Below are positions 3,259 to 18,750 of a stretch of 53,592 nucleotides of DNA, piece by piece; within the stretch, counting starts at the first letter, position 1; every line of letters starts with the position of its first letter. The notes beneath the pieces were generated by a model, which was not told where the DNA came from, ran no database searches, and worked only from the letters and a program-made list of their open reading frames with translations. The position numbers and the translations under genes were made by a program. The stretch is from a virus: positions 1 to 53,592 of the IMG/VR virus record IMGVR_UViG_3300043399_000721. One strand, given 5' to 3'.

Positions 3259-3491
3259 GCTGTCAGACTTCTAAGAATGTTCAGATTTGCCTTTTCCTTT
3301 GCTCTATGTCTTTTCTGTCAGGCATATACTTTGGGACTCAAGTGACTCTTGATCGCTTTCAGGATGAAAAAGCTCATAATGCAAAGATTCTGGAGAACTG
3401 CGTTCAGGTTATGACAGGTACTATTCCAAAACATCTTGATTTTTCTAAAAAGAAGAAGAAGAAGAAAGATGTGAAGATCGCAAAAAATTAA
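3255..3491 (+). CDS. Small membrane-anchored protein with poly-Lys tail
   Basis: 78 aa. The N-terminus has a hydrophobic stretch (CLFLCSMSFLSGIYFG), which could be an anchor or signal. A helical middle follows, and a run of seven lysines near the end. Its TAA (3489-3491) is also the last three bases of the 8-bp sequence duplicated at 41491-41498, so the mobile unit inserted exactly behind this gene without breaking it. In the uninterrupted genome the next gene would be the secreted protein now at 41513. Confidence 0.65.
   Translation: MSCQTSKNVQICLFLCSMSFLSGIYFGTQVTLDRFQDEKAHNAKILENCVQVMTGTIPKHLDFSKKKKKKKDVKIAKN
3484..3491. repeat. Left copy of 8-bp target-site duplication (aaaattaa)
   Basis: The 8 bp directly before repeat 1 are identical to the 8 bp directly after repeat 2 (41491-41498). 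Eight bases is the duplication length known for IS1595-family elements. The sequence is low-complexity, so chance identity is possible, but it abuts both repeat boundaries exactly. Confidence 0.8.
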
Positions 3492-3521
3492 GAGGAATAT
3501 TCTGGGTGTTGGGTTCTTTAA
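3492..3521 (+). pseudogene. 3' remnant (10 codons incl. stop) of the inner-phage 65-aa gene
   Basis: Reads EEYSGCWVL and stop, exactly the end of the intact gene at 38737-38934. In copy 1 the coding sequence upstream is missing and replaced by the outer-genome operon. This polarises the transfer: the repeat comes from the inner phage. Confidence 0.85.
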
Positions 3522-3539
3522 AGACCGATAAATAAATTT

Positions 3540-4262
3540 ATGAGGCACGAGATGGAGCATTGCAGTTGCTACGAGTATGGGTTTAATCTGTCACACATGG
3601 AGGCTAATCATGTTTCATGCGCTGACTGTGGTCGAATTGTTTACCGCAAATTGAACGCACTCTTTGTTGAGAAAGAAGGGGTTTATTCAAACCTCCCAAT
3701 GGTTGAAGCATGGGACATTGAAAGAAACGCAATGAATTGCAGGAATGAACTTCCCGCTGTTGCTCATCCCCCTTGTGAAAGATGGGGGCGGTACTGGTTC
3801 GGTGGCCCATCGGTAAAAGAACGGAAGAAACTTGGAGATGATGCCGGATGTTTTGCTTTTGCTCTCTGGTACGTTCGCACCTATGGCGGAATTTTAGAGC
3901 ATCCTGAAGCGTCTCATGCGTTTAAGTTTTTCGGTCTTCCGTTACCAGAAAGAAAAGGTGGATGGAGCTCGCCGGATATTTATGGCGGCCGTTCTTGTTG
4001 TGTTGAACAGGGGCACTATGGGCACCCGGCAAGAAAAGCTACTTGGCTTTATGCCGTGAAGACAGATTACCCGGACCTAATTTGGGGGCCATGCGAAGGA
4101 AAGATGAGAATGGACGAAGGTTTTCACTCAAAGGAGCAGGCCAAGGAAATGAGAGCTCGCCCTGACTATGTTCCGGTTAAAAGATTATCGGCATACGAGA
4201 GACTGGCAACACCAGTCGATTTCAGAGACTTACTAATTAATATTGCAAGAACGGCAAGGTAA
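3540..4262 (+). CDS. Phage protein with zinc-ribbon-like N-terminus and HPPC/EHP motifs (methyltransferase-like?), copy 1
   Basis: 240 aa. It matches, from memory, a phage protein family of unknown function with the run VAHPPCERWGRY (here 74-85), then GGILEHPEASHA (116-127), GGW, CCVEQGHYGH (153-162) and ARKATWLY. The PPC and EHP elements resemble motifs IV (PC) and VI (ENV) of cytosine methyltransferases, but there is no full SAM-binding motif I, so activity is doubtful. Residues 8-30 hold CxC and CxxC pairs that could form a zinc ribbon. The start may be ATG 3552 rather than 3540, because gagg lies 8 nt before 3552. It lies inside the repeat but outside the IS inverted ends. Confidence 0.85.
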   Translation: MRHEMEHCSCYEYGFNLSHMEANHVSCADCGRIVYRKLNALFVEKEGVYSNLPMVEAWDIERNAMNCRNELPAVAHPPCERWGRYWFGGPSVKERKKLGDDAGCFAFALWYVRTYGGILEHPEASHAFKFFGLPLPERKGGWSSPDIYGGRSCCVEQGHYGHPARKATWLYAVKTDYPDLIWGPCEGKMRMDEGFHSKEQAKEMRARPDYVPVKRLSAYERLATPVDFRDLLINIARTAR

Positions 4263-4271
4263 ATAATCTTA

Positions 4272-4295
4272 GGTAACTATCCCTTGACGACAAGT
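4272..4295 (+). repeat. Left terminal inverted repeat of the IS
   Basis: Starts GGTAACTATCCCTT. Matches the reverse complement of 6054-6077 at 20 of 24 positions; mismatches are at positions 6 and 15-17. The second copy is at 39685-39708. Confidence 0.85.
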
Positions 4296-4312
4296 AGGAA
4301 TTAGTTTATACT
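4284..4312 (+). promoter_or_regulatory. Promoter in the left IS end
   Basis: TTGACG (4284-4289), a 17-bp spacer and TATACT (4307-4312), with the expected start near 4319, just ahead of the ribosome site (agaggtag) of the methyltransferase gene. The -35 box lies in the inverted repeat, so transposase bound to the end could repress its own operon (inference). Confidence 0.75.
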
Positions 4313-4331
4313 GATTACAGAGAGGTAGAGT

Positions 4332-5144
4332 ATGCGAATTTTAAGTCTTTTTGATGGAATATCTTGTGGGCAAATAGCCTTAAACAAAGCCGGAATTTCA
4401 AATTATGACTATCTGGCTTCGGAAATAAATCCTTATGCTATTAAAGTTACACAGCATAATTTTCCAAAAACTATACAGCTTGGAGATGTAACCAAGATTA
4501 AAGGGACGGAATTAGGTAAAGTTGATTTATTGATTGGTGGAAGTCCTTGCCAAGGGTTTAGCTTTGCTGGGAATCAACTTAACTTTGAGGACGAAAGGTC
4601 TAAATTATTCTTTGAATACGTTCGACTTCTTGAGGAGACAAGCCCTAAATATTTTCTTTTAGAGAATGTTAAAATGATTAGGGAGAGCGAAGACATAATA
4701 ACTAAAATGTTGGGCGTTAAGCCTATTAAAATAAATAGTTCTCTTGTATCTGCACAAAACAGAGAGAGGCTGTATTGGACTAACTTACCCCATCCTACAA
4801 TTCAGGACAGAGGATTGGTTTTAAAGGATGTTTACGAACCTATTTCTGGCACCCCGTTAAGTGATACAACCGCTTCCAGACCTAGAACTATTCGTAATTA
4901 TAGGGGGTTAAATCAAAAATCTTCTTGTCTCTTGGCTACTATGTATAAGCTCAGTCAGAGTAATGGAATGACGGTCATTCAAGACAATGGAAAGTTACGC
5001 TGTATTACCCCCTTAGAGTGTGAAAGACTTCAAACCGTTCCTGATAACTATACTTCAATACTATCCAATACTAGAAGATACGAAGTGTTAGGTAATGGTT
5101 GGACAGTTGACGTTATAGTTGAATTTTTTAAGGGGTTGGCATGA
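4332..5144 (+). CDS. C5 cytosine DNA methyltransferase (transposon passenger), copy 1
   Basis: 270 aa, complete. Would transfer a methyl group from SAM to cytosine C5 in DNA. Motif I is LFDGISCGQ (6-14), motif IV GGSPCQGFSFAG (69-80) with catalytic C73, motif VI ENV (111-113), motif VIII QNRERLYW (142-149), motif IX RCITPLECERLQ (223-234), motif X GNGWTVDVI (254-262). The target-recognition region (about 150-220) is short, as in compact phage-type enzymes. No restriction endonuclease partner is present, so it may act as an orphan enzyme that protects DNA or affects transposition through methylation of the ends. It overlaps the transposase start by 4 nt. Confidence 0.95.
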   Translation: MRILSLFDGISCGQIALNKAGISNYDYLASEINPYAIKVTQHNFPKTIQLGDVTKIKGTELGKVDLLIGGSPCQGFSFAGNQLNFEDERSKLFFEYVRLLEETSPKYFLLENVKMIRESEDIITKMLGVKPIKINSSLVSAQNRERLYWTNLPHPTIQDRGLVLKDVYEPISGTPLSDTTASRPRTIRNYRGLNQKSSCLLATMYKLSQSNGMTVIQDNGKLRCITPLECERLQTVPDNYTSILSNTRRYEVLGNGWTVDVIVEFFKGLA

Positions 5145-6022
5145 GGTACACTATCAAAAATTTCATCAAAGACTTTCCAGACGATAAGACTTGCCTAGCC
5201 TTCATCTTTAAAAACCGTTACCCAAATGGACTAACTTGCCCTAAATGTGAAAAGACTTCATTTCATCCGGTCGAAGGTCGTAAGTCCTATGCTTGTTCAT
5301 GCGGTTATCAAACCTATCCGACTGAAGGAACTATCTTTCATAAATCACCTACGCCATTAACTCTTTGGTTTCATGCTATTTTCCTCATGTCTCAATCCAA
5401 AAATGGGGTAGCCGCTAAGGAATTAGAAAGACAGCTTGGAGTCACATATAAAACGGCTTGGAGAATGGCGAAACAAATTCGGATGCTTATGGGACAAAAT
5501 CCAGACCCATTAGGCGGTAATGAAATCATTGAAGCCGATGAAGCGTATATTGGCGGTGTTCGCAAGGGTAAACGAGGGAGAGGTGCCGCTGGTAAAACTC
5601 CTGTATTTGGAGTTGTTGAAAGGCAAGGTGAAATCAAAACTCAAGTAGTTAAAGACGTTAGGCAAGCGACAATTATTCCATTGTTTTCAAACATGGTGCC
5701 AGCACAAGCCGTTATTGTTACGGATGAATCAAGCATCTATAACAAGGTAACTAAACTAGGGCATTTGCACGAAACTATTAACCATGGAAACGGTCAGTAC
5801 GGTCGAGGAGATGTTCACACCAATACTATTGAAGGCTTTTGGTCACAGTTTAAGCGTTCGGTTCACGGGACTTTCCACGCTGTTTCACCGAAGTATTTGC
5901 AGTCTTACCTTGACGAGTTTTCTTTTCGCTACAACCATCGGAAGTCTTCGCAGTCTTTGCCTGTTTTGATGTTTTCAAGGGTTGGGACGCTTTTACCAAA
6001 AGACGAAAAAATTGCTTCATAA
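5141..6022 (+). CDS. IS1595-family transposase, copy 1
   Basis: 293 aa. An N-terminal zinc ribbon (CPKC at 33-36, CSC at 52-54) is followed by a helix-turn-helix region (about 85-115) and an ISXO2-like DDE catalytic domain: IEADEAYIGG (D133), VIVTDESS (D195), HTNTIEGFW (N228/E231) with FKRS shortly after. Length and order are those of the family. It starts within the methyltransferase stop (ATGA), so translation is coupled. Both copies are intact and identical, so mobility is plausible. Confidence 0.95.
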   Translation: MRYTIKNFIKDFPDDKTCLAFIFKNRYPNGLTCPKCEKTSFHPVEGRKSYACSCGYQTYPTEGTIFHKSPTPLTLWFHAIFLMSQSKNGVAAKELERQLGVTYKTAWRMAKQIRMLMGQNPDPLGGNEIIEADEAYIGGVRKGKRGRGAAGKTPVFGVVERQGEIKTQVVKDVRQATIIPLFSNMVPAQAVIVTDESSIYNKVTKLGHLHETINHGNGQYGRGDVHTNTIEGFWSQFKRSVHGTFHAVSPKYLQSYLDEFSFRYNHRKSSQSLPVLMFSRVGTLLPKDEKIAS

Positions 6023-6033
6023 GGATTTTTAAT

Positions 6034-6249
6034 ATGAATACGAAGGATGGTCAACTTGTCACTAAGGGATACTTACCTAAAGTTATGCGGGCAAGAAGCT
6101 ATGAGACCGGCTTATGTTATAACCATCTGCAAAGAAGCACTAAAAGAAGTGGAATAAGCGCGTCCGGTAAGCTCCATTCGGGATTTGGAATCGCTGACAG
6201 ACCGATTGTGCAACGTCTGTCTTCCATAATTATTCAATATACTGCATAA
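6034..6249 (+). other. Outward-reading ORF starting inside the IS right end (chimeric here)
   Basis: ATG 6034 is preceded by aaggattttt and reads 14 codons of IS sequence (MNTKDGQLVTKGYL) without stop through the inverted repeat, then 57 codons of flanking phage DNA that do not look protein-like. In copy 2 the same ATG reads in frame into a secreted-protein gene. Either a small IS-encoded leader or a chance frame; I do not call it a functional gene here. Confidence 0.35.
6054..6077 (-). repeat. Right terminal inverted repeat of the IS
   Basis: Read inward on the minus strand it starts GGTAAGTATCCCTT. It ends exactly where the two 2.6-kb repeats stop matching, as expected of a transposon end. 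The second copy is at 41467-41490. Confidence 0.85.
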
Positions 6250-6291
6250 TTAATCACAGAAAACATTCACAATACTCGATAAGAACTACCG
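6078..6291 (+). other. Junction region between IS and HNH gene
   Basis: About 210 bp without a convincing gene. An 18-codon frame from ATG 6101 (MRPAYVITICKEALKEVE) ends at 6157 and could be a tiny gene or the tail of something broken by the IS. A 7-bp inverted repeat (gacagac 6196-6202 / gtctgtc 6215-6221) is followed by ttccataatt and could be a weak terminator. This DNA would follow the 240-aa gene in the IS-free inner phage. Confidence 0.4.
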
Positions 6292-6570
6292 CTGAAAAAC
6301 TTTCAATCTGAACTCCCCTGTACCGTTTGTGGACTCTCTCTTCCCGGGATGGTTGCCTACCATCACGTCTACACTCGCAAGGCTTACCCTGAGCACACTG
6401 AGGAGAACTGGAACTTAATGCCCCTGTGCTCGCATCATCACGTTGAAACGCACCGGATCGGGACAGTCTCATTCTCTCGGAAGTATCCGCAAGCGCACAA
6501 CTGGCTGATAAGGAAAGGATGGGAGTTGCACTCCGGGAAATGGATTTATCCGCATCCGGGATCGGAATAA
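6292..6570 (+). CDS. HNH endonuclease, start codon uncertain
   Basis: The frame is open from 6283. It contains PCTVCG and then YHHVYTRKAYPEHTE and the core NLMPLCSHHHVETHRIG, a metal-binding HNH fold with paired cysteines. Typical of nucleases next to phage terminase genes, which take part in packaging-associated cleavage. The only ATG in frame (6349) would remove the CxxC, and no ATG, GTG or TTG exists between 6283 and it. CTG 6292 (LKNFQSELP) is the natural-looking beginning, so either CTG is used or a start was mutated. A start from 6349 gives 73 aa. Confidence 0.65.
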   Translation: MKNFQSELPCTVCGLSLPGMVAYHHVYTRKAYPEHTEENWNLMPLCSHHHVETHRIGTVSFSRKYPQAHNWLIRKGWELHSGKWIYPHPGSE

Positions 6571-6803
6571 ATAATCTCCGGGATAACCTCGTTGTCTGGC
6601 GTGCCAAGCTCCGCAGGATGCTCAACTACTACAAGAAGAAATCAGACAGCGAAGACCTTGCGCTTGTCCTGTGCTCATTCCCGTCGACCTCTGTTTATAT
6701 TTACAGCGCAACACAACTCACGTTTGAGCAGTGGCTAATGGAAGCTGAGACAATCATGAGTCAATGCTATCAAGCGGGATATCAGTACAAGGGGATGCTA
6801 TGA
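6540..6803 (+). CDS. Small hypothetical phage protein
   Basis: 87 aa from ATG 6540, overlapping the HNH gene by 31 nt; an upstream start at 6519 is also open. Contains NLVVWRAKLRRMLNYYKKK and a later amphipathic stretch. No recognised family. Its position between HNH and packaging genes is that of small accessory phage proteins. Confidence 0.5.
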   Translation: MDLSASGIGINNLRDNLVVWRAKLRRMLNYYKKKSDSEDLALVLCSFPSTSVYIYSATQLTFEQWLMEAETIMSQCYQAGYQYKGML

Positions 6804-6915
6804 AAACCCGTTGCTGACTAATTCCTAGACAGCCATTGTAATCTTTTCAACTCTTCACCTTGGTGCGTGTTGTTGGGTTATTATGCTCTCAGGACATTAA
6901 CCGCCGGGAGGCAAT

Positions 6916-7221
6916 ATGAACACCAGAGCAATAGCAAACAACGGAAAGCCAACAATCGACGAAGGAAACGAGCATTTTATTTGGTCTTATAATGAATCAA
7001 CTAAACAGGAAAATTTGCAAATAGCTACTCTTTACCTGTGCGACTCCTGCGGCACACCTTCGACAGTGAACTCGGTTTGGGTTCTAGTGGGTTATCAATT
7101 TCCAATAGGAGTTGGAGCTGCACTTAAACAAGCTAATGAAATAAAAGAAAAATTCGGTCTTTTAACCGAACTTGGAGCTAACGAAGATGGCGATGGTTTT
7201 TGCGAGAAATGCTATAAATGA
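6916..7221 (+). CDS. Hypothetical protein with two CxxC pairs
   Basis: 101 aa, ribosome site gggagg. LCDSCG (42-47) and FCEKCYK near the end form two CxxC pairs that could bind zinc. Overlaps the next gene by ATGA. About 110 bp of noncoding DNA precede it. Function unknown. Confidence 0.65.
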   Translation: MNTRAIANNGKPTIDEGNEHFIWSYNESTKQENLQIATLYLCDSCGTPSTVNSVWVLVGYQFPIGVGAALKQANEIKEKFGLLTELGANEDGDGFCEKCYK

Positions 7222-7400
7222 AATATATGATATTACTTATTTTGCTTTCCTGCGGGAAGAGTGAGAAGAGATGCGTTTCAATAGAAGAAGCGCGTCTTCG
7301 ATGCAAGGCCGATGTTGTCCGAGACTACTGGCCGGGAACAGCACCCGAGTCACTCATGAAACAGTGCGAGTACTACTACCCCGTAGAAGCATGTTATTGA
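7218..7400 (+). CDS. Small putative lipoprotein
   Basis: 60 aa. The N-terminus MKYMILLILLSCGKS has a short hydrophobic core ending in LLSC, a lipobox, so the mature protein would begin at Cys12 and be lipid-anchored. The remainder has four more Cys. Coupled to the preceding gene. Function unknown; some phages carry such lipoproteins for exclusion or lysis, but nothing here decides. Confidence 0.6.
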   Translation: MKYMILLILLSCGKSEKRCVSIEEARLRCKADVVRDYWPGTAPESLMKQCEYYYPVEACY

Positions 7401-7426
7401 CTCCCGATGTAAACACACTTTAAACT
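7397..7426 (+). promoter_or_regulatory. Candidate promoter for the packaging/head operon
   Basis: TTGACT (7397-7402), 18-bp spacer, TAAACT (7421-7426; 4 of 6 to consensus). It is the only good -35-like box ahead of the long rightward structural operon. Confidence 0.4.
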
Positions 7427-7464
7427 GAGGTTAAGAGTCGGTGACTCGAAACATTTAACTCAGT
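7424..7464 (+). promoter_or_regulatory. Nested inverted repeat in the operon leader
   Basis: Outer arms actgag-g-ttaa and ttaa-ctcagt enclose an inner hairpin gagtc-ggt-gactc. It lies directly after the candidate promoter and before the first gene of the operon, so it could be an operator or an RNA leader structure. Confidence 0.45.
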
Positions 7465-7473
7465 GAGTAACTT

Positions 7474-7656
7474 GTGGAAGAAATCGGCGCAATAAGCGCA
7501 TTGCTATCAGCAATTAAAACTCGTGTTGATGGCTCAGTCAGCATCACCCTCGAAGCAAATCCATCAGAGATCGAAGTGATAAACAAATTGTTGCAGTGCT
7601 ACCTGATCGACAAGCGCTTGTTCACTGTCGCGTTCATTAGGACTGACAATGAGTAA
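7474..7656 (+). CDS. Small hypothetical protein before TerS
   Basis: 60 aa from GTG 7474 with only a weak ribosome site. Hydrophilic, mixed alpha/beta (SVSITLEANPSEIEVINKLL). Overlaps the terminase small-subunit gene by 8 nt. Function unknown. Confidence 0.5.
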   Translation: MEEIGAISALLSAIKTRVDGSVSITLEANPSEIEVINKLLQCYLIDKRLFTVAFIRTDNE

Positions 7657-8077
7657 GATGGGAAGACCTCACGGATACGATCCGAAGCACGTAACCGAGA
7701 TGCTAGAGTTCTTTCAGAACTGGGAAGAGTTCCGAGAAGTCGAAAAAACTGTCATTGTCGGTGGTCGGGTAACAAAGATCAAGGAAAGACTCGCAAACTA
7801 TCCTCCGACTCTGAACAAGTACGCCATCAAGCTTGGCATTGACCGCCACACACTGAAGAGATGGGCCGAAGAAAATCCTGACTTTTATGCCACATATAAA
7901 GCTTGCAAGATAATCCAGGAGGAATGGCTCTCCGATCGTGCGACCACAGGAGAGTATCACGCAGGGTTCACTAAGCTCATGCTGGTGAATCATTCGGACA
8001 TCAAGGATAGGGTTACTCACGAAGTGCATGATGCAGCGATAAAAATAAATATCGACTCAAGCGACAGCAATTTATGA
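7649..8077 (+). CDS. Terminase small subunit
   Basis: 142 aa. The helix-turn-helix-like segment [20 protein letters not shown], then [39 protein letters not shown], is the pattern of phage small terminases that bind packaging sites and hand DNA to the large subunit. Gene order (TerS, TerL, portal) supports it. Codons are more GC-rich than in the two genes that follow, which hints at mosaic origin. The stop overlaps the homing-endonuclease start (ATGA). Confidence 0.85.
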
Positions 8078-8568
8078 GCGAGTCATGGAAAGCGTTGGAC
8101 GGGTTTGATTATGAAATATCAAGCAATGGCAGAGTAAGGCATTTTAAAAACGGCTTAAAGAAATTAAGCGTTCATAGAAATGGATACTCCTCGGTTTCGC
8201 TATGGAAAAATGGCAAAGAAAAAAGAGAGCTTATCCACAGGCTTGTTGCAAAAAAATTTCTCGGCAATATTGATGGAATGGAAATTAATCATAAAGATTT
8301 TAATAAACTCAATAACAGAGTTGAAAATTTAGAAATTGTAACCAAAAAGCAAAACACTATTCACGCAAAACACGGGAAAAGATTTACTGGAAATAGAAAT
8401 GTTTCAGGGTCAAAGAATCCTGCATCAAAAATAGATGAGGAACAAGTAAGAAAAATAAGAGCCATGAAAGATTCCGGCGCAAGATATAAAGAAATTATAG
8501 AGCAATTTGGTATTAAGAAATCACAGCTATGGAACATAATTTCTGGAAAATCATGGAAGAATGCATAA
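8074..8568 (+). CDS. Free-standing HNH homing endonuclease (NUMOD4 type)
   Basis: 164 aa. Residues 1-55 match the NUMOD4 pattern ([20 protein letters not shown]). The HNH core is [20 protein letters not shown]. The C-terminal 45 residues ([15 protein letters not shown] to [12 protein letters not shown]) form a helix-turn-helix for DNA recognition. It sits between TerS and TerL, overlapping both by a few bases, so it was inserted or grown without breaking either. Such enzymes cut phage lacking the insertion and spread by repair. AT-richer than TerS. Confidence 0.9.
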
Positions 8569-9826
8569 GTTTACAAAAACAGAAAAACAAAATCAGGCGA
8601 TAAAAAAACTCTCTGGCATAGCAAGACACATCATGCTTTACGGAGGATCAAGGTCAGGAAAAACATTTATTTCTGTTTACGCAATAATAGTCAGAGCATG
8701 CAAAGTAAAATCAAGGCACGCTATCCTTCGCCTAAATTTCAACCACATCAAAACATCTATATGGCTTGATACTCTTCCTAAGGTTTTAAAAATTGCCTTT
8801 CCTGATCTTTCTGTTGAATGGAACAAAACAGACTACTACATAACATTTCCAAATGGGTCAGAGATATGGATCGCTGGCCTTGATGATGAAAAGAGAGTTG
8901 AAAAGATTCTTGGTAAGGAATACTCAACAATTTACTTTAACGAGTGTTCGCAGATTCCATACAAGTCTATTCAGATTGCTCTTACAAGACTTGCAGAAAA
9001 GAATGAATTAAGAAAGAAAGCATACTACGATGAGAACCCACCATCAAAAAAACATTGGTCTTATTGGCTGTTTATAAAAAAGCTTGATCCAATAGACAAC
9101 GTTCCCGTCGAAGATGATAAGTACGAATCAATTTTAATGAATCCTGGAGACAATCTACAGAATATTGACGAAGAGTACATTTCCGAAGTGCTAAACAATC
9201 TTTCAGAAGCACAAAAGAAAAGGTTCAGGGATGGCGAATTCGCCTCGGACGATGACGGAGTTGCTTACTATTCTTTCGACAGGGAAAAGCACGTTCAACA
9301 GATAGAAAACAAATTACTACTTGGACAAAGGCTTGTCGGAATGGATTTTAACGTCCAGCCCATGACTGCCGTTGTCGCTCATTACACAAGTGGCAGGTTT
9401 TATATTTTCCAGGAAGTGTTTTTAGAGAACTCGGATACATTTAAAATGTCAGATTTCCTTATTAAAAACGGACATAAGGGAGCCAGCATTTATCCAGATT
9501 CAACCGGGAAGAACAGAAAGACATCGGGGAAATCCGATCATCACATTTTACAAGAGTCAGGCTTTAGGGTTCAATATACAAGAAACCCAATGGTTATTGA
9601 TAGGGTTAATAATATAAACAGACTCCTCATGGACGGTAAGATTATTATTTCTCCTAACTGCAAAAAACTAATAAACGACTTGGAAAAGGTTTCCTGGAAA
9701 GATGGTCAACTCGATCAAAAGTCGGACAAGATGCTTACCCACATATCGGATGCGCTCGGTTATTTATGTTGGGCGATCGAACCGCTATTAGAAAAACAAC
9801 CAGAATCTAAATTTACTCAACTATAG
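8561..9826 (+). CDS. terL: Terminase large subunit
   Basis: 421 aa, the ATP-driven packaging motor and nuclease. Walker A GGSRSGKT (28-35); Walker [11 protein letters not shown] (about 124-133); coupling region with [12 protein letters not shown]. The C-terminal RNase H-like nuclease has [20 protein letters not shown] and [12 protein letters not shown] carrying the acidic metal ligands. Length is usual for the PBSX/Terminase_3-type group. The start at ATG 8561 lies inside the end of the homing endonuclease gene; codon use of both is AT-rich, unlike TerS and portal. Confidence 0.95.
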
Positions 9827-9833
9827 GATCAAT

Positions 9834-11177
9834 ATGCTCAAGCAAAGAAGAAAGGAAATCATCGACTACGTTAAGGACAATGCTTCGTTCCTGAGAACCA
9901 ACACAGAGGCACTCGACATTTACGAGGGAAATCTTCGCCCATACGTTGATGACATTCTCCGCAAGAGTCTTTCTCCTACCTATTACGGATCAATCAAGGA
10001 CAGGATTCTCCCGATCAACATTCTTCAACGTTTCGTCGATAAGGTTGCTACAACATATGCCAAGCCGCCAATCAGACACAGCGACGACGCACGAACGCAG
10101 GACTTCGTTGAGTATTACGATAAAGCACTTGCGATCAACAACTCTGGTAACATTGCCGATGCCTACTCTCACCTGTTCAAAGGCTTTGCTTGGGAGCCAT
10201 ACATCAACAAGAATGGAAAACCTGCGCTGAGAGAGCTTCCGTTTAACTCTTTCCTTGTGATGTCCGACTCGATGGTCAACCCGGAGGAAGAGACAATCTT
10301 CATCAAGCTCATGGGCAAGAAAGGACAAGACGAAGATTCGATGCTTCTCTTTGTTTACACCGATCAAGAGTTCGATGCTTTTTATCTTAACGGCAACGAA
10401 GCATCCGAGTATCTGGTGGACAACGAAGGGATCAACGTCATCGGAACCATTCCGTTTGTTTACGGCAAGAGACAGAAGAACAGGTTAATGCCCGTGCTCG
10501 ATACCGATATGCTTGCGATCACGAAGTCTATTCCATGCATGCTGACCGATGCGTCTGGCGCACAAATGTATCAGGCGTTCTCAATCATTTACGGGATTGA
10601 TATTTCTGCAGAGAATTTGAAAATGTCACCGAACGCACTATGGTCTATCAAGTCAGATCGGGAGAGTGACAAGAATCCACAACTTGGAGTTCTCACTCCG
10701 TCCGCTGATACCGATAAGGTTCTCTCATTTATCACAACCACGTTTACGCTATGGCTCGAGACAAAAGGTGTTCGCACCGGATCAACAGGACAAACAAGCG
10801 GATCAAATCTTTCTTCTGGGATCGCGAAGATCATCGACGAGATGGACGTATGGGAACTAAAGAAGAAGTCACAAGCATGGTTCAAGCAAGACGAAGAAGA
10901 ACTCTGGAACGTGAAACTTCCTAAGATTCACAACTATTGGATCAAGTCTGGCATGATTTCTCCGGCCATGGTTCCACCAATTCAGCCAGAAGAGCTTGAT
11001 GTTGATGTGGTGTTTGAAGAACCAAAACCGATGATCTCAAGAGTAGAAGAAATTTCTAATATCCGGTCAGAGCTTGAACTCGGAACGATGACCATGAAAC
11101 AAGCTATTAAACAACTTCATCCAAACCTAGAGCACTACGAGATTGAAGAAGTAATGGCAAACAGAGTCATGATGTAA
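9834..11177 (+). CDS. Portal protein
   Basis: 447 aa directly after TerL. N-terminal helical part, then the run RFVDKVATTYAKPPIR, typical of portal proteins in which the chain enters the stem region, and a long acidic C-terminus (VDVVFEEPKPM). Forms the dodecameric DNA gate at a capsid vertex. Identification rests on position, length and this pattern; no single decisive motif. Confidence 0.8.
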   Translation: MLKQRRKEIIDYVKDNASFLRTNTEALDIYEGNLRPYVDDILRKSLSPTYYGSIKDRILPINILQRFVDKVATTYAKPPIRHSDDARTQDFVEYYDKALAINNSGNIADAYSHLFKGFAWEPYINKNGKPALRELPFNSFLVMSDSMVNPEEETIFIKLMGKKGQDEDSMLLFVYTDQEFDAFYLNGNEASEYLVDNEGINVIGTIPFVYGKRQKNRLMPVLDTDMLAITKSIPCMLTDASGAQMYQAFSIIYGIDISAENLKMSPNALWSIKSDRESDKNPQLGVLTPSADTDKVLSFITTTFTLWLETKGVRTGSTGQTSGSNLSSGIAKIIDEMDVWELKKKSQAWFKQDEEELWNVKLPKIHNYWIKSGMISPAMVPPIQPEELDVDVVFEEPKPMISRVEEISNIRSELELGTMTMKQAIKQLHPNLEHYEIEEVMANRVMM

Positions 11178-11178
11178 G

Positions 11179-11700
11179 ATGGCAAAATATTCGGTTAAAA
11201 TTCCATTCACTAGATCGATCAAGGTTAAGGATAGGCAGAAGATTGCCGATGCTTTTTTGACTCACATCATAGGAAGGACGCTTGCTGGTTACGATAAAGA
11301 GAACGAGCGTTTTGCTGGTTACACTAAACAATATGCAGAGTTTAAAGGTGTAGGACGCAGGGATGTTGATCTTACCTTATCTGGTGAGATGCTTGATCAA
11401 TTAAAGGTTCTAAAGATAGATGCTCGTGGTGTCGAGATAGGTTATCGTGGCAGTAAAGAGCTTATCGGTAAGGTTGAGGGTAATATCCTTGGTACATATG
11501 GTCAGCCGGATCCAATTCCAGGTAAAGCTCGGGATTTTCTCGGAATTGATGACAACGATGCTGAAATGATTGTCGAAGCATACGCAGATGAAGACTTGTC
11601 AGAACTCACAGAAGAAGAACTAGATATTATTGCTCGTGAAGCTGCGCGTGAGATTCTGGGTGATATTGACTTCTTTGGAGATGATGATGGCGAAGCCTGA
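11179..11700 (+). CDS. Head-tail joining / morphogenesis protein (Mu gpG-like)
   Basis: 173 aa. The run DLTLSGEMLDQLKVLKID, and an earlier segment in which RFAGYTKQYAEFKG precedes a Lys/Gly turn, resemble phage virion morphogenesis proteins that finish heads or tails. The acidic C-terminus (EEELDIIAREAAREIL, then FFGDDDG) is unusual and may bind a partner. Located between portal and scaffold. The exact role is an inference. Confidence 0.6.
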   Translation: MAKYSVKIPFTRSIKVKDRQKIADAFLTHIIGRTLAGYDKENERFAGYTKQYAEFKGVGRRDVDLTLSGEMLDQLKVLKIDARGVEIGYRGSKELIGKVEGNILGTYGQPDPIPGKARDFLGIDDNDAEMIVEAYADEDLSELTEEELDIIAREAAREILGDIDFFGDDDGEA

Positions 11701-12178
11701 GGATGTCCTGAAGAAGGTAGGAGATAGACTCAAGATCAAGATTCGTCTTGCTAAGAATGCTGCTGCCAGAGAGCTTGCTGGACTTATTCCAGAGCTAGTC
11801 AAGATTAGAACTCGTGGCGCAGGAGATGGTGTTAATGGCCCACTAAAAGATTTAGAAAGCTCCACCATCAAGTACCGTGAGCGATACGATGATAACCTTC
11901 ATCCCGAGACAACTCCTACAACATCGAACCTCACCGCCACTGGACAGTTACTTGACTCACTCAAGGGGCGGAACGTAGGATCAAAGGTAATAGTAGAGCC
12001 GAAAGGTAGGAGAACTCAGGAGCTTTCTGGTGAAAGATCAAGAAAGACAAATAAACAAGTTTTGAAATACGTCGAAGATGGTGGGCGAGTCTTTAATGAG
12101 CTTAACCATGGTGAGCGTGCCGAGATCATTGAGACTGCTACACAGATTATTAAGGATGAACTTAAGGGTGTCACTTGA
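11687..12178 (+). CDS. Head-tail joining / neck protein
   Basis: 163 aa if started at ATG 11687, 6 nt after ggag; two more in-frame ATGs (11681, 11684) precede it. Basic N-terminal helix, then LIPELVKIRTRGAG and TSNLTATGQLLDSL, a pattern of HK97-gp10-like tail completion proteins. Shares the SG.ML/TGQLLDSL idea with the preceding gene, so both may be related neck components. Overlaps the previous gene by 14 nt. Confidence 0.6.
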   Translation: MAKPEDVLKKVGDRLKIKIRLAKNAAARELAGLIPELVKIRTRGAGDGVNGPLKDLESSTIKYRERYDDNLHPETTPTTSNLTATGQLLDSLKGRNVGSKVIVEPKGRRTQELSGERSRKTNKQVLKYVEDGGRVFNELNHGERAEIIETATQIIKDELKGVT

Positions 12179-12207
12179 CACCAGTAATCAACAGGGAGAA
12201 TATATTT

Positions 12208-12798
12208 ATGTCGGATCAAGTGGTCAGTGACCAATCTCAAAGCAACGGTGTTGCTCCTGAGCCTAAGACGAGTGATGTTGTTAAGTATGAAACCTATAAA
12301 AGGGTTTTGTCCGAAGCAAAAATGCTCAAAGAGAAGGTAAGGGAGTACGAAACAACTCTCCAACAAACTCAAGAGCAAAAACTGAAAGAGCAGAATGAAT
12401 GGAAGGCACTCGCTGAGCAATACAAAGCGAAGCTAGATCAGACATCTAATGTTCTTCAGGAGCAGGAAAGAAGCATCGTCAACGGTCTTAAGTATCATGA
12501 ATTTGAGAAGCATCTGGGCGGAAAACTGAAGAATCAGGACTATGCCACATTTGTAGATTTTGATCGGATCGTATTGAACCCGGAGACTAAGAAAGTTGAT
12601 GAGGATTCAGCCAAGGCAGTGGCCGCAGACTTCGTTAAGAGACATTCCTCACTGGTAGAATTTGCCGGACAAGGAAGACTTCCCAACGATGCTCCTAAAG
12701 GTTTCTCTCCTGGCGAAAAATCCGTTAGCGACATGAAGGATCCAAAAGAAATTCAAAAACATATCCTTGAGCTTGCTGCACAAGGACTAATTAAATAG
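12208..12798 (+). CDS. Scaffolding protein
   Basis: 196 aa from ATG 12208 (ribosome site agggaga); an upstream TTG at 12175 is less likely. The N-terminal third is polar; residues about 30-95 are a long charged helix rich in Glu, Gln and Lys (coiled coil). The middle reads NGLKYHEFEKHLGG and DYATFVDFDRIVLN, like DUF4355-type phage scaffold proteins. Lies immediately before the capsid gene, as scaffolds usually do. Confidence 0.75.
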   Translation: MSDQVVSDQSQSNGVAPEPKTSDVVKYETYKRVLSEAKMLKEKVREYETTLQQTQEQKLKEQNEWKALAEQYKAKLDQTSNVLQEQERSIVNGLKYHEFEKHLGGKLKNQDYATFVDFDRIVLNPETKKVDEDSAKAVAADFVKRHSSLVEFAGQGRLPNDAPKGFSPGEKSVSDMKDPKEIQKHILELAAQGLIK

Positions 12799-12808
12799 GA
12801 GCTACTAA

Positions 12809-13663
12809 ATGGACGTTATCACAGGCAATACCCAGCTCGGGAATACAAAACAAGACCTAATTGCCGCAATGGTACAGCGTGAACTCGCTTTCCGTGCAAA
12901 ACTTCTTCCATTCTTCACTGACCTTTCTCCAATGGTTGGCAAAGGAATGCAATCTATCTCTATCCCTAAACTCTCCTCTTTCGCTGTCGCTGACCGTGCC
13001 GAAGGTGTTGCGGGTGAGATTTCTGCTCTCTCAACAGGTGTTGATAAACTTGAGCTTAACCAGAATCTTTATGTTTCTTGGTTGATCGACAGCATGACAG
13101 CAACTCAGTCTAACATTCCTGCTCAGCTTCTTTTCGCTCAGCGTGCTGCTGCTGCTCAAGCTCGCAAAATCGACGAGCTTATTATCGCTGAACTCGGTGC
13201 GATTGCTCATGCTTTCGTCAACGTAGGTGCTGATGCAAACGTAACTTACGCTAACCTCACTACTATGGTTCGTGAACTCGAAGAAAATGAAGCTATGATG
13301 GAAGATTGTGTATGGCTCGTTTCTCCTGCGCAGAAAGAAGCTATCTTCAATCTCGCTGAATTTAAGAACCAGTATCAGTTTGGTCAGGCAACACTCCCAA
13401 GTGGTGTTATCGGAACAATTCTTGGAATTCCAGTAGTCATGCACTCTGGTCTCGCCTCTGTTCAGGTTTACCTCGCTGAGAAGTCTGGTCTTGCTTACGC
13501 ATTTCAGAAGACTGCTTCTTACGCTGAAGAGAACGAAATTGCTTACGGTGTTGGCGCTAAACGTGCTGCCGTTGATCAACTCTTTGGTCTTAAGGGTATG
13601 CAGCTTGGCCAGAAAGGTGCTGCTGCAGGCAAGTCTCCACTGGTTATCGGTCTCAACGACTAG
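12809..13663 (+). CDS. Major capsid protein (HK97-type fold likely)
   Basis: 284 aa with a strong ribosome site (aggagc). Ala/Leu-rich N-terminal helix, then SPMVGKGMQSISIPKLSS, a central domain with CVWLVSPAQKEAIFNL, and PSGVIGTILGIPVVMHSGL, a pattern typical of HK97-fold shells in which a beta-hairpin carries the conserved G-x-P/GIPV. Position after scaffold and strongly optimised codons support the most abundant virion protein. No protease gene is seen, so the shell probably matures without cleavage by a phage-encoded enzyme. Confidence 0.85.
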   Translation: MDVITGNTQLGNTKQDLIAAMVQRELAFRAKLLPFFTDLSPMVGKGMQSISIPKLSSFAVADRAEGVAGEISALSTGVDKLELNQNLYVSWLIDSMTATQSNIPAQLLFAQRAAAAQARKIDELIIAELGAIAHAFVNVGADANVTYANLTTMVRELEENEAMMEDCVWLVSPAQKEAIFNLAEFKNQYQFGQATLPSGVIGTILGIPVVMHSGLASVQVYLAEKSGLAYAFQKTASYAEENEIAYGVGAKRAAVDQLFGLKGMQLGQKGAAAGKSPLVIGLND

Positions 13664-13679
13664 TTTCAAAATCATTGAC

Positions 13680-13710
13680 GAGGGTGCGGTGAAAGCCGTA
13701 CCCTCTTATT
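13680..13710 (+). terminator. Hairpin after the capsid gene
   Basis: gagggt ... accctc arms with a partly paired centre (gcgg/gccg) followed by ttatt. Might terminate part of the transcripts so that capsid mRNA exceeds downstream messages. Confidence 0.5.
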
Positions 13711-13920
13711 ATGAATAAGAAACCATCGCACATAAAGCACTTCCTAAAGAGCAGAAGCCCGGAAATGCTCAAGGCGATGATGCTAAAGAATAGTGTTGAG
13801 AAAAGACACTATTTTGATTACTTCATTGTCCACGATGGACAGTTCTGGTTTGCTTGGTACGAGTGGGACACTGACTATACTACGGATGTGAATGATGAAA
13901 TCATCTCTGAAGGACCGTGA
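13711..13920 (+). CDS. Small hypothetical protein
   Basis: 69 aa, basic N-terminal half and aromatic C-terminal half (FWFAWYEWDTDYTTD). No clear ribosome site, since the start lies at the foot of the terminator-like hairpin. Overlaps the next gene by 29 nt. Function unknown. Confidence 0.5.
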   Translation: MNKKPSHIKHFLKSRSPEMLKAMMLKNSVEKRHYFDYFIVHDGQFWFAWYEWDTDYTTDVNDEIISEGP

Positions 13921-14158
13921 GTTTGATAAATTCCGTCCCGCCCCGAATGATAAATCCTCTATTTCAGTAACTGCCGACACACCCATACCGGTTGATTCAT
14001 CCGGCGTTTATTGGGATGAAATCACAACTACCTTTCCGTCTTCAACTCAGGAATTGTTTACTTATAAAAAAGATGCTGTAATTGTTCAAACTGTATTGGT
14101 AACGTATCAGGCAACGGACAAGAAAACGATAATCTCCATGGTTCGAGAGAGGTTCTAA
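13892..14158 (+). CDS. Hypothetical virion-module protein
   Basis: 88 aa. Contains TPIPVDSSGVYWDEITTTF and a beta-rich C-terminus (YKKDAVIVQTVLVTYQA), a pattern I associate with small phage proteins placed just before fibre genes. Shares a single base with the next gene (TAATG). Function unknown. Confidence 0.65.
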   Translation: MMKSSLKDREFDKFRPAPNDKSSISVTADTPIPVDSSGVYWDEITTTFPSSTQELFTYKKDAVIVQTVLVTYQATDKKTIISMVRERF

Positions 14159-14346
14159 TGCCTTGGCGTTTTGATCCTCAAGCTGTTGATCTTGTCTTCG
14201 TTAGCTTCGGAACACAACAAATAGTCTCTGGTGAGGTTAGCTTCGGTGAAGAGATTGGAAGTGACCTTTTACTTGATACCGGAGAAAGAACAAACGATAC
14301 GTCTATAGTCGACGGCGGTCTAAGGGTAATCGATGGCAGTATTTAA
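14158..14346 (+). CDS. Small hypothetical protein, beta-rich
   Basis: 62 aa with alternating short beta-like stretches (LVFVSFGTQQIVSGEVSFG). Start overlaps the previous stop; end overlaps the next gene by 14 nt. Probably a minor virion or fibre accessory protein, by position only. Confidence 0.55.
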   Translation: MPWRFDPQAVDLVFVSFGTQQIVSGEVSFGEEIGSDLLLDTGERTNDTSIVDGGLRVIDGSI

Positions 14347-14713
14347 AGTCCCAAAAATTACTACAGCACAAAGAGAATCCTTGGTTCTTTCTGCGGCGGA
14401 GATAGTATTTGATACTGACTCTGCCGTCTACTTCGGAGGAAACGATGTATCGATGGGCGGTTTCCCTCTAGGTGCTAGTGGTGGAACATCAAACGTAGAA
14501 ACATTTATTCTTGATTCTCAAGATATTACAAATAAAAAAGTGATTTTATCATCCGAGCCTTTTTATCCATCATCGGTTCAACTTACTGTTGCTGGTGGTA
14601 TCCAGCAGATAAATGGGATTGATTTTGAGGTAGTTGGAACTGAATTAAGATGGGATGGTTTAGGGCTTGATAACTTTCTCGAAGTAAACGACACTTTAAT
14701 AATTCAATTCTAA
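14333..14713 (+). CDS. Fibre-associated protein (N-terminal fibre-domain type)
   Basis: 126 aa. KITTAQRESLVLSAAEIVFD at residues 7-26 is close to the short entry segment of many phage fibre proteins (mature fibre chains that begin with this trimerising motif). A beta-sandwich-like half follows (VQLTVAGGIQQINGIDFEVV). Likely a small attachment or capsid-decorating fibre encoded just before the large fibre. Confidence 0.65.
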   Translation: MAVFKVPKITTAQRESLVLSAAEIVFDTDSAVYFGGNDVSMGGFPLGASGGTSNVETFILDSQDITNKKVILSSEPFYPSSVQLTVAGGIQQINGIDFEVVGTELRWDGLGLDNFLEVNDTLIIQF

Positions 14714-14728
14714 CAATGGAGTGCATGG

Positions 14729-17320
14729 ATGGCGCAACTAATTAAAAAGAGATTTCTCTCAAGCGAGATTATTTCTTATTTCGACGATCAAATTGATTCG
14801 GTAGAGCAAGGACTTGCTCAGGAGCTTTTGGATAGGGCTTCCGGTGATGAGTCAACTCTTCAGGCAGCTAAAGATTATACAGACGCAGAAGTTCTTGCCG
14901 AAGCTGGTCTTCGTGCTTCTGGTGATGCTGCACTTGATACACGTATTACAACTCTCGAGGGTCAAGTCGGTGATGATCTCCAAGCGGCAATTGCTGCTCT
15001 TCAGGCAGTAGACTCTGGACTTCAGTCTCAGATTGATGCTCTTGAGGGCTTTGGTTATGACCAGGTAGTTTACGTAGCTAAGGGTGGTCTTGATACTAAC
15101 ACAGGAAAGCAGCACTCTCCTTTCTTGACTATTGCTGCTGCAATGAGCGCAATTACAGACGCTTCCCCTACAAAGCGTTATGTAATTAAACTTCAAGCAG
15201 GAACATACACAGAATCATCTTTAGCACTTAAGCCAAACGTCTTTGTTATCGGTGACAGCATGTATTCTACAAGAATTAGTGGCGCGGTATCGCTTCACAG
15301 TTCTTTTACTGGTTCTGCTGATAACAGGTCAGGTTTTGCTGGTGTTACAATCAACTCCGCTGTTGATTTTAACTGGGCAACAGTAACATCTGCTGCAGGT
15401 AAGATTTACTGCCGTGATGTTCAATTTGTTTCAACAGTGAACATGTATGGCCACAACAACGCTATTGCGCAAGCACAGTACACAAACTGTATTTTCTTTG
15501 GCGCACTTACAATCAGCGGTATTAATGTTGGCGTATTTAGTAACAACATCTGCTTTGGAAACATTACCCTTTCACAACATCCTAATGGTGGGATGGCGAC
15601 AATTCTCACAGCAACAGGCGGTTACTGTGCAGGAACAATTACTCAGACTGCCTCTGTAAATGACTTTAACAGAAGATCGGCATCGTTCCTTAGGGGCTTC
15701 AACTCTGAAAAGCTCGTTATCAACGGGCCATCGGCATACGCTGATGTAGACCTGATTTCTCAAGGCAAACAGACTCCTGACATCCTTAATGGGGCAAGCC
15801 TTGTCCCTATGACTCCATCTGTGAACTATAACCTTACAACGCAGATGATTGTTCCTAAGGCAACAAATTCTCACAACATGGGAGATTGGGGCAAGCAGTG
15901 GACTTGGAACTTTGGTTATGTCCACGCATCAACTGGCACTGATTTGTTACTTATTTCCTATCCGTCTTCTTATAGTCCCGACTCTGCCGGTAAATCCATC
16001 GGCATTTACACTGATGGCGCTGGCCTTCAGGAAAATGTAGACGGCGGTAGTATTGAACTCGCAACAGCGGCCGTTTCTGGAACTGGTGTGCGTGGGAAAA
16101 TCACTCTCGACGCAAGAGAAATTGACGTAACCAGTAAGCAAATTAAAAATCTTGCCGACGGTACTTTTGCAACGGATGCTGTAAACAAGGGACAACTCGA
16201 ATCTGCCATTGCAGCTATTCCTCCGGTAGACCTTTCTGGTTACTACACAAAGCCAGAAGTGGATGGTATCGAATCTGGTCTTCAGTCTCAGATTGACACA
16301 GAAAAGGGTCGAATTGATGCTATCCTTCTTGCATCGGATGCTGATAAAGACAGTTTCAAGGAAATCGTCGATATCATCAATTCTGTTGACACAGAAAACG
16401 ATGAAGCATTTGCTGGCTATGTTCTCTCTAACGACGCTCGGGTAACTGAAGTCGAAGGCAATCTTGCTCAGGAAGTATCTGACAGACAAGCAGCAATTTC
16501 AGCGGTTGAGCAATCAATCAGTGACCTTGCTTCTACAGCTACTCAAGAATTTGCAGACCTCCACGGTGCAGTTATTGTTACTACATCTGAAGGAGTAGCT
16601 CAGGGGCTTCAGTCTCAGCACTCCTACCTTTTCGTAGGCTCTCAGGCGCATACTCTTAAGCTGCCAGATTTTGCCGACCTTACAGTAGGTGAAATCTTTT
16701 ATGTAACTAACCGCTCGACTCAGTCTATTTCTGTAAAGCGTCACGATGAAGCTGTGTTCCCTGGTACGCCTATTTCTGCTTATCTGGTGGGCCCAGGACA
16801 AAGAGGGGCTTTCACTTATTTTGGCGGCGGCGGATTCGGTCTTGCTGCATCAATGGTCTTTGGTGTTGATGGGTCACAGAACGCATCCGGACTTAAGATT
16901 GTAAACCTTGGTGATGGTGTCGCCGCTGGTGACGCTGTAAACAAGGGTCAGCTTGATGCTCTTGAATCTTCTGCAGTTTCGGCCCTTGGTGCAATTCAAG
17001 ATGAGGTTGATGCTGTTGAGTTTAGTGTTTCGGCCATTGACTCTCGTGTGCAAGCACTTGAAGCGCAGGTTGATGGTCCTTCATTCTTTAATAGTTCTGC
17101 TGTAATTGGCGAAGAGCTTGCCTACCTTGATCTTGATCGTGAATACATTAAACTCATGTCTGTGGCCGTCGGAAGACTTGCCATCCACGAGGGAGAGGAC
17201 TTCACAGTGTCAGTTGTTGCTGGCAAAACTCGACTCACATGGATTGGATCACTTGCTAATCCAAGCGGAACAGAAAAGATGGAGAAAGGCGATAAAGTAT
17301 TTTGGGTCGGAGCTTACTAA
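14729..17320 (+). CDS. Large fibre with beta-helix domain
   Basis: 863 aa. Residues 1-105 are coiled-coil-like with repeats of the type SGDxALDxRI and LxSQIDALE. Residues about 110-420 form a right-handed beta-helix of pectate-lyase type starting YVAKGGLDTNTG, with GTYTESSLALKPNVFVIG. Further coiled coil (about 490-600) and a beta-rich tip end the chain (EKGDKVFWVGAY). The helix and following region are strongly similar to the 997-aa fibre on the minus strand of the outer genome. Receptor binding is the likely role; no catalytic residues could be assigned. The gene is unusually placed, between capsid and tail genes. Confidence 0.85.
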   Translation: MAQLIKKRFLSSEIISYFDDQIDSVEQGLAQELLDRASGDESTLQAAKDYTDAEVLAEAGLRASGDAALDTRITTLEGQVGDDLQAAIAALQAVDSGLQSQIDALEGFGYDQVVYVAKGGLDTNTGKQHSPFLTIAAAMSAITDASPTKRYVIKLQAGTYTESSLALKPNVFVIGDSMYSTRISGAVSLHSSFTGSADNRSGFAGVTINSAVDFNWATVTSAAGKIYCRDVQFVSTVNMYGHNNAIAQAQYTNCIFFGALTISGINVGVFSNNICFGNITLSQHPNGGMATILTATGGYCAGTITQTASVNDFNRRSASFLRGFNSEKLVINGPSAYADVDLISQGKQTPDILNGASLVPMTPSVNYNLTTQMIVPKATNSHNMGDWGKQWTWNFGYVHASTGTDLLLISYPSSYSPDSAGKSIGIYTDGAGLQENVDGGSIELATAAVSGTGVRGKITLDAREIDVTSKQIKNLADGTFATDAVNKGQLESAIAAIPPVDLSGYYTKPEVDGIESGLQSQIDTEKGRIDAILLASDADKDSFKEIVDIINSVDTENDEAFAGYVLSNDARVTEVEGNLAQEVSDRQAAISAVEQSISDLASTATQEFADLHGAVIVTTSEGVAQGLQSQHSYLFVGSQAHTLKLPDFADLTVGEIFYVTNRSTQSISVKRHDEAVFPGTPISAYLVGPGQRGAFTYFGGGGFGLAASMVFGVDGSQNASGLKIVNLGDGVAAGDAVNKGQLDALESSAVSALGAIQDEVDAVEFSVSAIDSRVQALEAQVDGPSFFNSSAVIGEELAYLDLDREYIKLMSVAVGRLAIHEGEDFTVSVVAGKTRLTWIGSLANPSGTEKMEKGDKVFWVGAY

Positions 17321-17330
17321 GGAGAATTTT

Positions 17331-17420
17331 ATGAATAAACCGCAACCGCCAATTCCACCAAGCAAACCAGAAAACCCACAACCAAAACCAGTTTCTGTAG
17401 AGCCAAGCGTAGAACCGTAG
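17331..17420 (+). CDS. 29-aa proline-rich peptide
   Basis: ATG 17331 follows a strong ribosome site (aaggag) and reads 29 codons rich in Pro, Lys and Ser (PPIPPSKPENPQPKP) to TAG. A terminator follows at once. Proline-rich phage peptides of this size can be assembly or decoration factors, but the role is unknown. A longer frame crossing this region in a different phase is not a gene. Confidence 0.55.
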   Translation: MNKPQPPIPPSKPENPQPKPVSVEPSVEP

Positions 17421-17428
17421 ACTAATCA

Positions 17429-17456
17429 GGGAGGGGAGAAATCTCCTCCCTTTCTT
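17429..17456 (+). terminator. Intrinsic terminator after the fibre unit
   Basis: gggagg/cctccc stem with additional inner pairs and a gaaa loop, followed by tttctt. Separates the head/fibre unit from the tail genes. Confidence 0.75.
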
Positions 17457-17467
17457 CAGGATGAACG

Positions 17468-18301
17468 ATGAATAAACGAGTTTTCTTTTCTGATAATGGA
17501 GTCCTCAGGGACTTCTCGGTAAATTTAAACAAGTATGATTCAACCGAATCAGTATTTGATTACAAAACAGGAGAAGATTACTTTTTTATCGGTTCACGTT
17601 TACCATTTAACCAACTTTATTTTAAGCTCGTCACACTAAATGAGCTACCGGCCAATATGTATGTAGAGGTATGGGACGGCTCACAATGGCAGTTTGTTAA
17701 TGAAGTCATTGATGAAACAGGCGCCTTCTCAGACTCTGGTTATATTACCTTCTACCCTGACCGTGATTATGGATGGGATCTTGCCGACACAGCAAGCACC
17801 GGTGAGGTAGTGGAAGGGCTTGAGTCAGTTAAGATTTACGATCGTTACTGGCTTAGACTTAGCTTTGACGCTGACCTAACAGAGGGTGTATCACTCTCGT
17901 GGCTTGGGAATATCTTTTCAGATGATGGTGACTTGGGTGCAGAGTATCCAGATCTCATTAAGACAAACGTGCTTTCCTCATTTAAGTCAGGCAAGACTAA
18001 CTGGGAGGAACAACACGTTCGTGCTGCTTATATCATTGAGCAGGACTTGATTATAAACAAAGTTGCAATATCCCCTGAGCAAATTCTTGATCGGGAAGAC
18101 TACAGACTTGCGTCAGTTCAGAAGACAGCGGAAATTATCTTTAATGCCTTCGGTGACGACTTTACTGATAATAAACAAAGAGCAAAAGAAGAGTATCAGC
18201 GCAGAATTTCTGCACCCAATAAGAAAATCGATCGTAATGCTAACGCTGTTGAAGACCGTTATGAGACTATGAATGAGTCTTCGGGTTGGTTACAAAGATG
18301 A
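17468..18301 (+). CDS. Hypothetical virion protein
   Basis: 277 aa. Beta-rich first 160 residues (for example NMYVEVWDGSQWQFVNEV, DRYWLRLSFDADL) look like a jelly-roll or carbohydrate-binding-like fold. The C-terminal 100 residues are helical (QRAKEEYQRRISAPNKK). Lies just before the tail terminator gene. Could be a neck or collar component; not recognised. Confidence 0.65.
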   Translation: MNKRVFFSDNGVLRDFSVNLNKYDSTESVFDYKTGEDYFFIGSRLPFNQLYFKLVTLNELPANMYVEVWDGSQWQFVNEVIDETGAFSDSGYITFYPDRDYGWDLADTASTGEVVEGLESVKIYDRYWLRLSFDADLTEGVSLSWLGNIFSDDGDLGAEYPDLIKTNVLSSFKSGKTNWEEQHVRAAYIIEQDLIINKVAISPEQILDREDYRLASVQKTAEIIFNAFGDDFTDNKQRAKEEYQRRISAPNKKIDRNANAVEDRYETMNESSGWLQR

Positions 18302-18750
18302 GCAAGGTAAGCACAATATACGACAGGCTGTTGGTTGAGCTTGCTGCCTTATATCCTACCAAAACTAGAATCCCCTATGCCTACTCGCTGCCGGATAACA
18401 ATGCCAGGTTTCTGGTGGATGGCTATGGTCTAACCATTGGCCCTTCCAGTTTCGAGCAGTTCGAGTTTTGTGACTTTATGAATACTAGAGAGGTGAACGT
18501 GGTTCTCACTAAGGAAGTATTCAGAACAGACTCCGACGCATCTGTAATTGATTCAATTACTAAGGCAATATTAGAGAATGTGTACGAGGTGCAGAAACTA
18601 TTCTACTCTTATAATGAGCTTGGTATTCCAAACGATATTGCAAAGGTTGATATTGGTTCGGTTTCAGCAGTTGAGGAAGTCATCTCTGGGAAGCAATCTT
18701 TCTTGAGCATGACTGCATCGTTTAACTTTTATATTATAGAGAAACTTTAA
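18298..18750 (+). CDS. Tail terminator / completion-like protein
   Basis: 150 aa from ATG 18298, which overlaps the previous stop (ATGA); an in-frame TTG upstream (18286) is unlikely. Mixed alpha/beta chain of the right size for a siphophage tail terminator, positioned directly before the tube gene. The assignment rests mainly on position. Confidence 0.6.
   Translation: MSKVSTIYDRLLVELAALYPTKTRIPYAYSLPDNNARFLVDGYGLTIGPSSFEQFEFCDFMNTREVNVVLTKEVFRTDSDASVIDSITKAILENVYEVQKLFYSYNELGIPNDIAKVDIGSVSAVEEVISGKQSFLSMTASFNFYIIEKL

Follow-up and report, generated by a model that had tools for sequence, protein, structure and literature searches.

Neighbouring genes can be captured by a lone insertion sequence (IS). 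This process, described for the most part in the IS1380 family, is responsible for the spread of several resistance genes (PMC9330008). In the transposable modules (TMos) formed by ISPme1 and ISEcp1, members of this family, a single IS moves together with adjacent DNA of variable length and produces the normal target duplication; only one end of such a unit is a true end, and the transposase misreads as the second end a sequence outside the IS that merely resembles the inverted repeat (PMC9330008, PMC3281130). For capture of the TMo type, PMC9330008 lists IS1380 members and possibly one IS3 member only. In a described ISEcp1 unit, the 12-bp repeats are imperfect, with five mismatches, and the duplications are 5 bp long (PMC11123474).

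Here we analyze an IMG/VR virus record of 53,592 bases that comes from a metagenomic collection and is referred to in its entirety as the window. The record carries a footprint comparable to that of the TMos, associated with an IS1595-family element. The best overall explanation, to which we assign a probability of about 0.68, is that an enlarged IS1595 unit moved from a ~35-kb phage into a second phage-like replicon.

The repeated unit and its insertion sequence

The window contains an exact direct repeat of 2,586 bp, and each of its two copies consists of 780 bp of phage DNA on the left and a 1,806-bp IS1595-family element on the right (Table 1). The earlier note had placed the start of the repeat at 3492 and the true left inverted repeat at 4272, and the coordinates of the exact repeat and of the IS bear out both positions. 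The transposase is an IS1595-type DDE enzyme with a zinc ribbon (NF033547, 220 bits against a cut-off of 75, with PF12762 and PF12760 likewise above their cut-offs), and terminal inverted repeats that resemble those of relatives are present at both ends of the element, 4272 and 6077. The sequence previously quoted as the IS end, ggtaagtatccc, does belong to the element but is its right end, read inward from 6077, the left end being GGTAACTATCCCTTGACGACAAGTA. The 780 bp on the left lie outside the IS and include a complete gene for a 240-aa protein of phrog_12600, a common phage family the function of which is unknown.

Table 1. Features of the window that bear on the enlarged mobile unit
Feature	Position	Strand	Evidence or remarks
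8-bp target duplication AAAATTAA, left copy	3484..3491	+	Identical to 41491-41498; chance 2.9e-5
Copy A of the putative mobile unit (780 bp of phage DNA and IS)	3492..6077	+	100% identical to 38905-41490
Putative surrogate left end GAGGAATATTCT, joined to target	3492..3503	+	6/12 identical to IS right end; PWM rank (see text)
240-aa phage gene (phrog_12600), apparently captured	3540..4262	+	phrog_12600, E=4.5e-52; at least 80 relatives in IMG/VR
IS1595-family insertion sequence, copy A, 1,806 bp	4272..6077	+	Inverted repeats; Pfam and NCBIfam matches
True left inverted repeat GGTAACTATCCCTTGACGACAAGTA	4272..4296	+	24/25 against ends of relatives
Passenger C5-cytosine DNA methyltransferase	4332..5144	+	PF00145, 3e-46; TIGR00675
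IS1595-family transposase	5141..6022	+	PF12762, 4.7e-43; PF12760; NF033547, 2.9e-65
True right inverted repeat GGTAAGTATCCCTTAGTGACAAGTT	6053..6077	-	Compared with ends of relatives
Probable donor phage, unique part	6078..38904	+	Terminase, portal, major head and tail proteins, ERF; 6078-10138 identical to L140
65-codon donor gene, intact across the left boundary of the unit (38905)	38737..38934	+	In-frame ORF
Copy B of the putative mobile unit, 2,586 bp	38905..41490	+	100% identical to 3492-6077
8-bp target duplication AAAATTAA, right copy	41491..41498	+	Identical to 3484-3491

In nine relatives of the IS, the normal inverted repeats are flanked by perfect 8-bp duplications, so that 8 bp is the duplication length made by such transposases. 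The flanks of the IS in the donor arrangement (4264-4271 and 6078-6085, TAATCTTA and TAAAGTTA, respectively) match at six of eight positions and thus form no perfect 8-bp duplication at the inverted repeats, and six close relatives, L099 among them, likewise have none. The missing duplication is compatible with membership in the IS1595 family, the duplication being a trait of fresh insertions. Among the closest relatives, with transposases 68-77% identical, the inverted repeats are intact and the 8-bp flanks differ (4-6 matches of 8), the perfect duplications being found in more distant members; the differing flanks may be due to recombination of one copy with another, to deletions next to the IS or to ends that are displaced. 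No further close relatives of the IS were found in the two phyla that were searched, to which the genomes of L099 and of another close relative belong (titled Lokiarchaeota and Rhabdochlamydiaceae, respectively).

Target duplication and extent of the putative mobile unit

A perfect 8-bp repeat, AAAATTAA, stands at the outer edges of the two copies. The earlier note had the duplication start at 3492, together with the repeat. It is present at the outer left edge of copy A but brackets the pair of copies (3492-41490) rather than a single one. The window has one other occurrence of the same 8 bp, at 1610, and the frequency of identical 8-mers at two randomly chosen positions of the outer DNA is 2.9e-5. 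The genes of the recipient at the target are intact, and the ORF at 3255-3491 retains its stop codon.

The left copy of the duplication adjoins the larger unit and is separated by 780 bp from the true left inverted repeat. Because AAAATTAA lies at the outer edges and its 8 bp is the length typical of the family, the mobile unit appears to run from the true right end of the IS past its true left end to a site 780 bp farther out. Both the position and the length of the duplication accordingly back the earlier proposal that the unit exceeded the IS, that it combined the true right end with a non-canonical left end, and that a phage gene had been captured.

Normal two-ended cointegration followed by recombination, considered as a source of this arrangement, is ruled out because it would put AAAATTAA beside 4272 in copy A, where it is absent, the duplication and the true left end being separated by 780 bp.

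Probable donor and recipient DNA

The unique DNA between the copies (32,827 bp) and one unit together amount to a circle of 35,413 bp. This inner phage is most likely the donor, because the reading frame of the 65-codon gene continues over the boundary at 38905, as had been pointed out before, because the 240-aa gene lies upstream of the terminase in two relatives, the same as in the inner phage, and because the donor-side flanks, GAAGAACCC and TAAAGTTA, show no duplication. The crossing gene and the lack of a duplication at the boundary also rule out the reverse case, in which the inner phage would have received the unit from elsewhere. Searches for homologues of the 65-aa protein and for relatives of the donor exonuclease gene found none.

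The stretch of the donor next to the IS is present, letter for letter, in L140, which comes from another sample and stops exactly 127 bp inside the IS. A break at this point resembles the k-mer overlap that marks a branch in an assembly, which suggests that, in the sample of L140 too, the IS has more than one right flank. The identity between L140 and the window extends over 4,188 bp and is followed by 120 differing positions in the portal gene (10139-10933), a sharp mosaic boundary.

The outer DNA (1-3491 and 41499-53592) contains tail-fibre-like genes and small genes of phage type, and its tetranucleotide bias is close to that of the donor (r=0.78, compared with 0.84 for parts of the donor among themselves and values no higher than 0.62 for other contigs). 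The outer DNA is therefore probably another phage, with the same or a similar host. Searches with two outer proteins yielded no relatives of the outer replicon, an exact pattern search detected no empty target site, and the outer junction did not turn up in any independent contig. The earlier note had named a relative of the outer genome with the full upstream gene as the case that would speak for recombination; no such relative was found, nor any outer-genome relative of any kind.

Several other features of the outer part were observed. The ORF at 41447-41887 starts inside the right end of the IS and reads in frame through the inverted repeat, which gives a recipient gene an N-terminal extension. 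A gene for a four-helix bundle of the 23S rRNA intervening-sequence family (PF05635) is located at 42445-42798 and is preceded by short GC-rich hairpins (42370-42440). The tail-fibre-like genes contain repeats of 63 and 84 bp (21 and 28 codons) at 49685-50078 and 52760-52859, respectively.

Origin of the joined record

The movement of the enlarged unit can be tentatively reconstructed from one well-defined footprint and one candidate repeat of it, L099. An IS1595-family element would have been resident in the genome of a ~35-kb tailed phage, just after the 240-aa gene, and transposition would have combined its true right end with a left end that is non-canonical and lies 780 bp beyond the true left inverted repeat. 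The transposase would have made both junctions, joining the true right end and the site at 3492 to the two strands of the 8-bp target, so that insertion into AAAATTAA of a second phage-like replicon duplicated those 8 bp. With a donor in circular or concatemeric form, a one-ended or replicative event would then be expected to yield a product in the order target, unit, donor, unit, target. Provided that the assembly is right, the record has the arrangement of a replicative cointegrate, with the donor between direct copies of the unit and AAAATTAA at the outer edges. Against this explanation counts the rare event that is required for the left end to be passed over, since the two true ends of the IS both seem functional.

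The fusion of the two replicons might instead be an assembly product, for which the chances fall just short of even: the donor circle would have been present in the sample alongside a recipient into which only the 2,586-bp unit had inserted, and the assembler would have walked from the recipient through the common repeat into the donor and then through the repeat back into the recipient. Short-read assemblers can resolve such shared-repeat loops into one contig. The metagenomic origin of the record, the letter-for-letter identity of the two copies, the length of the exact repeat, which is too great for short reads to span, and the break of L140 with its k-mer-sized overlap at a branch all favor this possibility. 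Nevertheless, the principal finding would remain, in that the recipient would still carry the enlarged unit between perfect 8-bp repeats; an enlarged unit is required whether the fusion of donor and recipient is physical or was made by the assembler.

The left end

The choice of the left site is a separate matter. The earlier note regarded the first 12 bases of the repeat as a look-alike of the IS end. The agreement in purine/pyrimidine class with the right end of the IS at 11 of 12 positions is correct and is equalled by 0.4% of the 12-mers in the window; the identity, however, is limited to six of the 12 positions, a level equalled by 5% of the 12-mers. Scoring of all donor positions with a PWM built from 34 family ends puts the site in the top 1-5% when 12 bp are compared, but only in the top 5-12% with 14 bp and in the top 17-28% with 20-25 bp. 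The degree of match between the ends is similar to that in the ISEcp1 unit mentioned above (PMC11123474). No hairpin beyond chance expectation was detected at the boundary of the unit, and a search of IMG/VR with the 21-mer at this end gave one chance match only, in an unrelated protein. Taken alone, that is, without L099, the evidence for a look-alike end is weak.

The case for a look-alike is raised by L099, a candidate second unit that came from a search among those relatives whose normal IS ends are without a duplication, in which about six candidates were seen. L099 is a short contig of a MAG titled Lokiarchaeota. In this contig, 406 bp together with the IS (268-2073) lie between perfect ATAAAAAA repeats, the whole stretch covering 260-2081. 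The outer end, GGGAATATT, has GGAATATT in common with GAGGAATATT of the window, at an offset of one base; the chance of such sharing is about 5e-4 per candidate, for a comparison that was picked after the sequence had been seen. When the flanks of the L099 unit are joined, they form a 71-aa frame with a weak match across the join to one phage family (PHROG, E=0.034), which is obtained neither with the parts alone nor with the unjoined version; beyond this match, searches yielded no homologue of the restored gene. The length of the restored ORF was dropped as evidence, given that random joins do equally well. Judged from these sequence features, L099 is possibly a second enlarged unit and is best treated as a lead. 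With L099 and the ranking over 12 bp on one side, and the limited identity and the ranking over 20-25 bp on the other, we consider it slightly better than an even bet that the left end is a misread look-alike.

Alternatively, the left terminus could be arbitrary, as in one-ended transposition of the Tn3 family, where one end is fixed, the other one is variable, and more than one donor length may go in. We regard this as a real possibility, if somewhat below even odds. In its favor, the inserted stretch, 3492-41490, equals one donor circle plus 2,586 bp, and over 20-25 bp, the left end is no better than 17-28% of the donor positions; conversely, the high rank of the first 12 bp and the similar sequence at the start of the possible second case, L099, argue against it. 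The assembly artifact and the arbitrary terminus each alter one step of the best explanation, so that their probabilities do not exclude that of the best explanation.

Two further explanations involve recombination. The 2,586-bp unit could have entered the outer replicon first, with a circular donor phage that carried the same unit integrated later by homologous recombination; this would produce the identical final sequence, and the phage encodes an ERF annealing protein, but the route is longer by a step than a fusion by one-ended or replicative transposition and still requires the enlarged unit, which makes it improbable. Least likely, the 8-bp match is a coincidence and 3492 marks the end of an illegitimate or homologous recombination event between two phages, a suggestion to which the AT-rich DNA and the failure to find an empty site lend some substance, against a chance of 2.9e-5 that the 8 bp adjoining the pair of copies on either side would match perfectly, the agreement of its length with that of the family's duplication, and the coincidence of the right boundary with the exact IS end.

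Implications

If the movement of an enlarged IS1595 unit is the correct explanation, the footprint of capture extends to another transposase family and to exchange between phage genomes, which would imply that more elements are able to build new mobile units and would provide a homology-free route to phage mosaicism. The footprint is exact enough for testing in transposition assays. The broader generalization, that phage IS1595 transposases regularly accept degenerate left ends (GG-AA-TAT-like) and so give rise to capture of neighbouring phage genes by a single IS, to fusion of entire phage genomes with other replicons by transposition and to mosaic phages without homology, appears rather unlikely.

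Comparison with known systems

No example of such capture by an IS1595 element or in a phage was found in the literature covered, which included few subscription journals. The element itself is similar to other members of the IS1595 family in its transposase, inverted repeats starting with GG, 8-bp duplications and the presence of a passenger gene; however, in those relatives that show a duplication, both ends are at the inverted repeats, whereas the left end of the unit in the window is not.

The record resembles the replicative cointegrates of the Tn3 and IS26/IS6 families in that direct repeats of the unit are located at both junctions between donor and recipient and a single target duplication is found at the outer edges. 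Unlike in these cointegrates, the repeated unit is larger than the IS, and the replicative mode is, for IS1595, a proposal.

The closest parallel is with the TMos, in which, as in the window, a single IS and flanking DNA behave as one unit with a target duplication, here AAAATTAA, at the outer edges. The differences are that the TMos depend on an IS1380 transposase, whereas the unit in the window has an IS1595-family transposase and an 8-bp duplication; that its additional DNA comes from the left-end side, upstream of the methyltransferase gene; and that the donor is a phage, the recipient is phage-like and the record includes a fusion with the donor. The unit in the window thus works like a TMo but, its transposase being of the IS1595 family, falls outside the IS1380 TMo group as defined.
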